Of a stretch of DNA of 64,000 nt, positions 52,105 through 54,360 are shown piece after piece. The DNA lies in NCBI RefSeq assembly GCF_009766005.1, contig NZ_LMUK01000051.1, positions 1-64,000 on the forward strand, written 5' to 3'. This DNA comes from Bradyrhizobium sp. S69 (GTDB taxonomy: Bacteria > Pseudomonadota > Alphaproteobacteria > Rhizobiales > Xanthobacteraceae). The notes under the pieces are model-generated. The model was not told the DNA's origin and ran no database searches. It saw only the letters and a list, made by a program, of their open reading frames with translations. The first letter of the stretch is position 1; each line of letters starts with the position of its first letter. The position numbers and the translations under genes were made by a program.

Positions 52105-52283
52105 GCTTCAGGTTGCACCCCGTCAAGCCGTTGAAATCTCGATGGCGAATGCCAAGATAGAACGGGCGTCGGCGGCTGACCGCGGCCGGCGCAGGGGATG
52201 CGTGCGCGATCGGGGACGTGCGTAGACGGATATTGGTGGTATATTCCCCGCCAGGCTTGCGCTGAAGCAACGGGAGCGCCTCA

Positions 52284-53255
52284 ATGCCCTCTTTGACGGA
52301 ATGGAAGGTGCCGCCGGCGAATCAGCCTCGCGCCGGCGACTATGCTTTCGACCTCGATCGGGCGTTGGCGTCAGTGATCGGCCTGCATTCGATCATTCCG
52401 AACGACGCCTTCAGCGCCGACAATCTGGGCACCGAACGCGCCGGCAATGGCGTGCTGATCGACCACGGGCTGGTGTTGACTATCGGCTATCTGATCACCG
52501 AGGCCGAAGCCGTCTGGCTGCATCTTGGTGACGGCCGCGTCGTGCAGGGGCATGCGCTCGGCGTTGATCCCGAAAGCGGCTTTGGCCTGGTGCAGGCGCT
52601 CGGCCACATCGATATCGATCCGCTCCCGCTGGGCTCTTCGGCATCCGCCGACATCGGCGACCGCGTGGTGCTGGGCGGCGCCGGCGGCCGCACCCGATCG
52701 GTCGCGAGCCACATCGCCGCCAAGCAGGAGTTTGCCGGCTATTGGGAATATTTGCTGGACGACGCGATGTTCACCCATCCCGCACATCCCAATTGGGGCG
52801 GCGCCGGACTGATCTCGAATCGTGGCGAATTGATCGGCATCGGCTCGCTGCAGCTCGAACGTGAGCGCGAGGGCAAGAGCGAACACCTCAACATGGTGGT
52901 GCCGATCGATCTGCTCAAGCCGGTGCTCGACGACTTGCGAAAATTCGGCCGCGTCAACCGGCCGGCGCGTCCGTGGCTCGGAATGTACTCGGCCGAGATC
53001 GAGAACAAGATCGTCGTGGTCGGGATCTCCGCGAAAGGTCCGGCGGCGCGCGCCGAGCTGAAGGCCGGCGATGTTATTCTGGCGGTGAACGGCGAGAAGG
53101 TTTCCAGTCAGACAGAATTCTACCGCAAGCTCTGGTCGCTCGGACCCGCCGGCGTCGACGTGCCGCTGACCGTTTACCACGAAGGCGTCACCTTCAACGT
53201 GGTGCTGGCCTCGACCGATCGCGCGAAGATGCTCAAGGTGCCAATATTGCACTGA
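52284..53255 (+). CDS. HtrA-like protein with PDZ domain, catalytic triad lost
   Basis: A 323-residue protein with a trypsin-like S1C domain (about 25-220) and a PDZ domain (about 225-315: RPWLGMYSAEIENKIVVVGISAKGPAARAELKAGDVILAVNGEKV). All three catalytic positions are replaced: the His of the usual NAHV is Tyr69 (LTIGYLI), the Asp of TDLALL is Gly99 (ESGFGLVQ) and the Ser of GNSGG is Trp171 (PNWGG). So it is most likely a pseudoprotease. No signal peptide is visible, so the site of action is uncertain. It is followed 34 bp later by an esterase gene. Confidence 0.84.
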   Translation: MPSLTEWKVPPANQPRAGDYAFDLDRALASVIGLHSIIPNDAFSADNLGTERAGNGVLIDHGLVLTIGYLITEAEAVWLHLGDGRVVQGHALGVDPESGFGLVQALGHIDIDPLPLGSSASADIGDRVVLGGAGGRTRSVASHIAAKQEFAGYWEYLLDDAMFTHPAHPNWGGAGLISNRGELIGIGSLQLEREREGKSEHLNMVVPIDLLKPVLDDLRKFGRVNRPARPWLGMYSAEIENKIVVVGISAKGPAARAELKAGDVILAVNGEKVSSQTEFYRKLWSLGPAGVDVPLTVYHEGVTFNVVLASTDRAKMLKVPILH

Positions 53256-53289: not shown

Positions 53290-54360
53290 ATGAGCGAGGC
53301 CGTGGTGGACGACATCGTGGCCGTGCTTCCGCCGTTGCTGCAATCGCTCGAAGCGCTGGGCTTGATCGCCCGCCATCTCAACCCGCCGGATTTCGGCCGC
53401 GTGATGCACGCCGTCGGGACGCCCGACCAATCCTTGCAAGCGGTGCAGCCGCGGCTGGCCGATTGGCCGGCAGAATTCGCAGATGTGCAGACCGCGCTGC
53501 AGGCGGCAAGCGACGCCGCGCTGAAGGCGTTCGAAGGCTTGCGCGCGGTGCAAAACGGCAATGGCGACCTGGTCGCGGTGTTTCGCGCGCTGCGTTACGC
53601 GCCGCGCGCGCAGGAAGCCTTGTATCCGCTGGCCGAAAAATTTCCACCGGTGAGCAGCTTCTTTGTCGATCCCGCCTGCCGCGACGATGCCGAGCTGTCG
53701 GCGCGGCTCGCCGCACCCGCGGGTCAGGATACCGGAATCATGCACGATCACAACGAGGCCGGCAGCCGTGGCGGCTTCTCGCTCTACGTGCCGGAATATT
53801 ATACGGCCGATCGCGCCTGGCCGCTGGTGATGGCGCTGCATGGCGGCAGCGGCAATGGTCGCGGCTTCCTGTGGAGCTGGCTGCGCGACGCCCGCAGTTT
53901 TGGCGCCATCCTGGTCGCCCCGACCGCGATCGGCAGTACCTGGGCGCTGATGGGCGAGGACGTCGATACGCCTAATCTCGCCCGCATCCTCGACATCGCA
54001 CGCGCACGCTGGAATATCGATCCGAAACGGCTGCTACTGACCGGCATGAGCGACGGCGGCACGTTCAGTTACGTCACCGGGCTCGAGGGCAGCTCGCCTT
54101 TCACGCATCTCGCACCGATTTCCGCGACCTTCCATCCCCTGATGGCGGAAATGGCGGACGCCAAGCGGCTGCGTGGATTGCCCGTTCATATCGTGCATGG
54201 CCAGCTCGACTGGATGTTTCCGGTACAAATGGCGCGGCAGACCCGGCAATTGCTGTCGGCGGCCGGCGCCGATGTCACCTATCGCGAGATCGAGGATCTC
54301 AGCCATTGCTACCCGCGCGAGATCAACCGGGCGATCCTGAGTTGGCTCAACGGCGCATAG
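53290..54360 (+). CDS. Alpha/beta hydrolase, phospholipase/esterase type
   Basis: A 356-residue protein: an N-terminal helical region of about 150 residues of unknown role, then an alpha/beta hydrolase. The oxyanion strand is WPLVMALHGGSGNGRGFLW, the nucleophile elbow GMSDGG, then VHIVHGQLDWMFPVQMA with the aspartate and LSHCYPREI with the histidine. It is of the dienelactone hydrolase/phospholipase type. The link to the upstream pseudoprotease (34-bp gap) suggests they act together. A strong hairpin follows the stop. Confidence 0.85.
   Translation: MSEAVVDDIVAVLPPLLQSLEALGLIARHLNPPDFGRVMHAVGTPDQSLQAVQPRLADWPAEFADVQTALQAASDAALKAFEGLRAVQNGNGDLVAVFRALRYAPRAQEALYPLAEKFPPVSSFFVDPACRDDAELSARLAAPAGQDTGIMHDHNEAGSRGGFSLYVPEYYTADRAWPLVMALHGGSGNGRGFLWSWLRDARSFGAILVAPTAIGSTWALMGEDVDTPNLARILDIARARWNIDPKRLLLTGMSDGGTFSYVTGLEGSSPFTHLAPISATFHPLMAEMADAKRLRGLPVHIVHGQLDWMFPVQMARQTRQLLSAAGADVTYREIEDLSHCYPREINRAILSWLNGA

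Follow-up and report, generated by a model that had tools for sequence, protein, structure and literature searches.

The window, meaning the whole stretch of 64,000 nucleotides that was analyzed, encodes a protein that keeps the two-domain fold of an HtrA protease and has lost all three residues of the catalytic triad (this protein and its relatives are referred to below as pseudo-HtrA). Because the same triad loss is kept in relatives across the class, the window protein is very probably a working protein that does not cut and that is mislabeled in databases as a protease. Annotated public plasmid records of such proteins mostly read “S1C family serine protease” and once “signal protein PDZ”; the former label would assign the wrong chemistry to a gene that is nearly universal in its genus. 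We consider it likely, with some reserve, that the window protein is a non-proteolytic, peptide-binding HtrA scaffold, adaptor, or holdase and that it belongs to an old family of HtrA-derived pseudoproteases.

The reading frame, which begins with ATG, is the one given in the original prediction, which also described the fold motifs and the PDZ domain as retained. Both domains were indeed found by Pfam (Table 1), and the Trypsin_2 and PDZ_2 pair is present in all 89 aligned family members. The best curated models were DegS and Do-type endopeptidases, far under their cut-offs (91.4 bits against a cut-off of 422.95 bits for DegS). A structure model, one of the checks proposed with the original prediction, yielded an HtrA fold (mean pLDDT 95.1, pTM 0.91), and comparison with the PDB gave whole-length matches, the best of which include DegP24 (Z 25.4, with a large rmsd of 8.8 over 278 residues that span two domains), Deg1 (Z 25.4, rmsd 5.7 over 282 residues), and DegS (Z 24.8, rmsd 6.0 over 283 residues). 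In 84 aligned upstream regions, no conserved promoter was seen besides the ribosome-binding site, and the remaining upstream 250 bp are poorly conserved.

Table 1. Features of the pseudo-HtrA gene and the adjoining esterase gene, with positions in the window
Feature	Position	Strand	Basis
GGAG ribosome-binding site, 7 nt 5' of the ATG	52273..52276	+	Four adjacent bases each at least 95% kept in 84 aligned upstream regions
HtrA-type pseudoprotease gene, 323 aa, without signal peptide	52284..53255	+	ATG start; stop ends at 53255
Arg52, 243/243 in the family	52437..52439	+	Ser (5) or Gly (4) in 9 ordinary HtrAs
Trypsin_2 (chymotrypsin-like) domain, residues 54–186	52443..52841	+	Pfam match (E 7.6e-14) and model/PDB matches
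Tyr69, catalytic His position	52488..52490	+	Profile–profile alignment, profile merge, HtrA addition, family tally
Glu73, 242/243 in the family	52500..52502	+	Gly (3), Lys (3), Asn (2) in 9 ordinary HtrAs
Gly99, catalytic Asp position	52578..52580	+	Profile–profile alignment, profile merge, HtrA addition, family tally
Trp154-Glu155-Tyr156 signature, each 243/243	52743..52751	+	Mostly Glu/Asp-Asp-Phe in ordinary HtrAs
Asn170, oxyanion-hole Gly193 position	52791..52793	+	Profile–profile alignment, HtrA addition, family tally
Trp171, L1 loop, residue preceding the Ser position	52794..52796	+	W 217, F 19, H 5, Y 2 of 243
Gly172, catalytic Ser position	52797..52799	+	Profile–profile alignment, profile merge, HtrA addition, family tally
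Trp231-Leu-Gly233-Met in the PDZ domain	52974..52985	+	Alignment; W 242/243, G 243/243
PDZ domain (PDZ_2), residues 232–305	52977..53198	+	Pfam match
C-terminal tail behind the PDZ domain, residues 313–323, RxxxLKxPxxH type	53220..53252	+	Conservation among relatives
Esterase (alpha/beta hydrolase), 356 aa, neighbor gene	53290..54360	+	ORF, domain matches, locus comparison
All-helical N-terminal domain of the esterase, residues 3–141	53296..53712	+	Structure model, mostly high confidence
Esterase Ser254 (GMSDG)	54049..54051	+	With Asp307 and His339, all invariant in 48 aligned sequences

The register of the lost triad was set in three ways: by profile–profile alignment with nine ordinary HtrAs, by a profile merge, and by extending the family alignment with 11 ordinary HtrAs. 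The segment HPNWGGAGLI of the pseudo-HtrA aligns without gaps with NPGNSGGALV of ordinary HtrAs, which places Gly172 at the catalytic Ser, Trp171 at the preceding Asn, Asn170 at the oxyanion Gly193, and the invariant Gly173 at Gly196. All 11 added HtrAs carry H, D, N, S, and G at columns 69, 99, 171, 172, and 173. The original prediction had Tyr69, Gly99, and Trp171 standing in for His, Asp, and Ser. Each of the three alignments bears out the first two and puts Trp171 one residue before the Ser position, which rules it out as the Ser replacement; the loss of the whole triad stands, with Gly172 as its third member.

To follow these positions through the family, relatives were drawn from named genome records (the best 80 of 578 loci) and from genome searches of the order, class, and phylum. 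The resulting 243 aligned relatives are redundant (some genomes were included twice, and L001–L081 are of the genus type), and 132 representatives sharing less than 85% identity gave the same residue picture. Two loci were left out of the 243, namely L087 (no ORF match) and L249 (partial gene). Where start sites were needed, L118 and L128 (no start found) were also left out, so that 130 of the 132 representatives remained; 88 of these plus the window protein make up the 89-row alignment (A2). In a tree with seven ordinary HtrAs, the 132 representatives form a clade of their own with an SH-aLRT support of 100, obtained by a quick search and with a long outgroup branch. Within this tree, 64 representatives group as subfamily B (support 96), and representatives outside it, including the window protein, are called window-type here; this is a remainder group and not an established clade.

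Among the 243 relatives, position 69 is Tyr in 239, Phe in three, and His in one; position 99 is Gly throughout; and position 172 is Gly in 197, Ser in 25, Ala in 13, Gln in three, Thr in two, Pro in two, and Asn in one. Hence, His is replaced in 242, Asp in 243, and Ser in 218 of the 243 relatives, and no relative has an intact triad or even two of its three residues, whereas the triad is intact in 11/11 ordinary HtrAs. This alignment of orthologs, also proposed as a check at the outset, shows that the loss is kept. At position 170, Gly is absent from the nine commonest residues, which cover 229 of the 243 relatives. Ser172 occurs in 24 of the 132 representatives (five window-type, 19 subfamily B), and one relative (L242:3965-4906) is the only one of the 243 with His69 (in GHLIVEA), together with the retained Gly99 and a Pro at 172. 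Given the 25 relatives with Ser172 and the His69 of L242, the site is not dead in an identical way everywhere. Judging from the residues present, the window protein would be unable to cut peptide bonds, and the conclusion that it is not a protease is well supported: both the triad and the oxyanion glycine are gone, and their loss is conserved in a gene under selection. This upholds the non-protease part of the earlier proposal of a binding or scaffold protein; the binding part is one that we infer.

The family has invariant residues of its own. Seven positions are identical in 243/243 relatives (R52, G99, W154, E155, Y156, G173, and G233), and eighteen positions show conservation of at least 97% across the 89 members and are unlike the nine ordinary HtrAs, including R52, Y69, E73, G99, W154, E155, and Y156. 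Compared with the nine ordinary HtrAs only, E155 and Y156 depart mildly from the Asp and Phe found there. The family-specific residues perhaps line the old active site, a placement taken from alignment and not from distances. One could imagine that the site has been rebuilt into that of an active protease or of a different hydrolase, for example one using Glu73, Glu155, and Arg52, since these residues vary hardly or not at all in the family and are unlike those of ordinary HtrAs, and since Ser172 persists in some relatives. We regard this as highly improbable: position 172 is mostly Gly and the oxyanion glycine has gone; in the 89 aligned rows, neither Cys nor Lys occupies any column at 60% or more, and His does so only at position 168, within the L1 loop (213/243 in the full set). 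The sole near-invariant Ser is Ser188 (88/89 rows), where ordinary HtrAs have Thr.

The pseudo-HtrA is widespread. Searches found it in 47/297 genomes of the order (E 1e-30), in 79/337 genomes of the class, and in 31/349 genomes of the phylum, the last number obtained after removing nine weak matches of the ordinary HtrA type (6/9 checked at the sequence level) from the 40 listed; the three samples overlap and contain the window's own genome. The matches are separated by a gap in E-value, with near-full-length members at or below 6.2e-54, partial matches between 1.3e-37 and 6.6e-28, and ordinary HtrAs from 2.4e-26. In the genus, where presence only was scored and residues were not compared, 144/146 genomes were positive. 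The residue checks described above exclude these 144 genus matches, three of the nine weak phylum matches, and the fragments in G606. At least two matches were seen in 29 of the 79 positive class genomes; in G606, the multiple matches are fragments on three contigs. In another of them, G433 (L243, G433:C5:482312-483364), the matches are two pieces within a single open frame, pointing to some 30 residues inserted near position 198. The window's own genome has a further HtrA-like stretch with one in-frame TGA (L087, G000:C48:42928-43707).

The pseudo-HtrA is a core gene of the genus and is under purifying selection, with a median dN/dS of 0.146 (600 random pairs from 81 sequences). The idea of a decaying pseudogene can practically be dismissed on these grounds. 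It could draw on the triad loss and on one genus genome in which the gene is split near residue 108 into pieces about 0.8 kb apart, perhaps by an insertion (G956:C1:4333831-4335611), but the matches in the 144 positive genus genomes are free of internal stops and nearly all span residues 1–323, and the low dN/dS, the invariant residues, and the conserved C terminus likewise argue against decay.

Bacterial HtrA/Deg (S1C) proteins are generally exported to the periplasm or the membrane. The window protein departs from this pattern: only six codons are open 5' of its ATG, which leaves no room for a signal peptide, and the earlier observation that none is present is thereby confirmed. By a crude hydrophobicity score, 32/64 subfamily B members have a signal-like start, and the same score is passed by 3/66 window-type representatives, in these cases on an inner strand. 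The starts of relatives had been picked by nearness to the start of the window protein, which could mask longer N termini; hence, the upstream frames of the 66 window-type representatives were inspected. Fewer than 15 codons are open in 26 of them, and among the remaining ones a hydrophobic stretch upstream was seen in L105 alone, 52 codons up.

At the other end of the protein, the PDZ domain carries the conserved Trp231-Leu-Gly233-Met, which we take to be at the position of the carboxylate-binding loop, and is followed by a conserved tail. The last residue of this tail is His in 51, Gln in eight, and Asn in four of the 66 window-type representatives, and the strict LKxPxxH ending is found in 34/66 window-type representatives, in 81/81 genus-type rows (L001–L081), and in 3/64 members of subfamily B. 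We tentatively put forward a broader idea, namely that a class-wide pseudo-HtrA family may have turned the ruined active site into a new ligand site (Arg52, Tyr69, Glu73, Gly99, the W-E-Y signature, and an aromatic residue or His at 171). One group would lack signals and presumably be cytosolic, another branch would be largely exported, and the tail would act as a built-in PDZ ligand. If true, the HtrA scaffold would have found new uses on either side of the inner membrane.

The original prediction also noted an esterase with an extra N-terminal domain. Such a gene does lie directly downstream, and the extra domain is helical in the structure model and has no Pfam match. Ser254, Asp307, and His339 of the esterase presumably form an intact catalytic triad, as judged from their invariance. 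The hydrolase half was modeled at low confidence, and the best structural matches of the model are esterases; among these, AntI (6hxa; Z 10.8, rmsd 5.5 over 258 residues) covers a large part of the helical domain; this whole-length likeness is weak and serves as a lead only. In the genus and its bacterial family, the esterase adjoins the pseudo-HtrA on the same strand in 89/91 loci, with a median gap of 28 bp. It lies downstream in 87 of these 89 and upstream in two (L096 and L293), which represent a single sister-genus genome (G236) included twice; in L293 (G236:C75:47731-49877), the swapped genes are on the same strand and about 120 bp apart.

Such an arrangement could mean that the pseudo-HtrA is a dedicated regulator or stabilizer of the esterase, with the helical domain as a possible docking site. 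In favor of this, the two genes form an apparent shared transcription unit, the adjacency persists in the sister genus despite the swapped order, and all eight genomes of the order that have the esterase have the pseudo-HtrA next to it. Among 51 chosen genomes, 48 have the esterase, and both genes are missing together in two (G077 and G917). The distribution of the two genes nevertheless makes this explanation unlikely. The esterase was found in only 8/249 genomes of the order, all from the window's bacterial family, and 241 were negative at E 1e-20, including G002, G004, and G015, all of them positive for the pseudo-HtrA. The loci nearest the window protein (L001 and L037) and one of the 51 chosen genomes (G951) keep the pseudo-HtrA without the esterase, whereas another (G943, in about 1000 contigs and counted among the 48) has a piece of the esterase with no pseudo-HtrA found. 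Outside the window's bacterial family, no esterase was seen beside the pseudo-HtrA in flanks of about 1.5 to 4 kb, and adjacency inside one bacterial family may be mere inheritance. The esterase is thus a narrow-range neighbor of a wide-range protein; its constant presence as a neighbor is limited to the genus plus a single sister-genus genome, so it cannot explain the pseudo-HtrA family. The partnership hinted at originally is weakly supported.

No neighbor gene recurs across the window-type lineages, and several apparent conserved neighbors turned out to be antisense shadow ORFs, for example opposite uvrD. A glutathione-transferase-like gene lies near the pseudo-HtrA, at varied positions, in nine loci from two other bacterial families (L121, L122, L124, L125, L127, and L129–L132). 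Twelve subfamily B loci (L198, L205, L210, L215, L219, L224, L235, L237, L239, L242, L246, and L290) have a uvrD-type helicase gene (identified by Pfam on one example) divergently upstream. In other subfamily B loci (L181, L186, L187, L191, L199, L223, L238, L240, and L244), Sel1-repeat and MlaA-like genes follow, with MlaC-like genes in some and GGDEF-EAL genes in some (Pfam on single examples), and a link of these Sel1/MlaA/MlaC-like neighbors to envelope lipid transport is possible. A comparison with phage families gave one match, to a family of unknown function (E 2.8e-21).

Returning to the non-cutting scaffold, adaptor, or holdase that we favor, the protein would probably be a cytosolic, HtrA-like trimer. 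Its old substrate cleft, lined or plugged by the aromatic residues Tyr69 and Trp171 and perhaps by Trp154 and Tyr156, would hold peptides or unfolded segments, and the PDZ groove would do likewise. The conserved free C terminus may bind a PDZ domain, either its own or that of a partner, and the esterase would be at most a lineage-specific client. With its wide taxonomic range and lack of an export signal, the pseudo-HtrA would be a clean system for studying the role of an HtrA fold that is unable to cut.

No description of the pseudo-HtrA family was found in the open-licence literature. A 2008 survey of prokaryotes reported two “serine protease homologues” among 247 trypsin-like proteins in 91 genomes, including B. 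japonicum (PMC2605481). These are likewise inactive bacterial relatives of serine proteases, and the portion of the survey available to us describes no family like the pseudo-HtrA (PMC2605481).

The window protein resembles the HtrA/Deg proteins (DegP, DegQ, DegS, and Deg1; S1C) in having a chymotrypsin-like domain followed by a single C-terminal PDZ domain and in matching their fold over its whole length. Unlike them, it lacks the His-Asp-Ser triad, the oxyanion glycine at 193, and the signal peptide, and it has family-specific invariants.

A close parallel is MamO, the magnetosome pseudo-HtrA of Magnetospirillum, which, in the part of its description available to us, is HtrA-derived and catalytically impaired and has a non-glycine residue at 193 and a Trp at 192 in the L1 loop (PMC4794232). 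The window protein shares the degenerate triad, a non-glycine 193 (Asn170), and a Trp in L1 (Trp171), and this similar damage could mean that it is a pseudoprotease that binds metal and functions as MamO does. We hold this to be very unlikely. MamO has a metal site (PMC4794232), and such binding is not suggested here because the family has no invariant His, position 168 in the L1 loop coming closest, although the metal sites of MamO itself are outside the alignment. MamO carries a TauE domain (PMC4794232); Pfam found none in the window protein, and there were no magnetosome genes among the eight window genes scanned. The L1-loop Trp is at 192 in MamO and at 194, two positions along, in the window protein, and, unlike MamO, in which Thr is the predicted nucleophile and the catalytic residues are properly placed (PMC4794232), the window protein has lost His and Asp as well.
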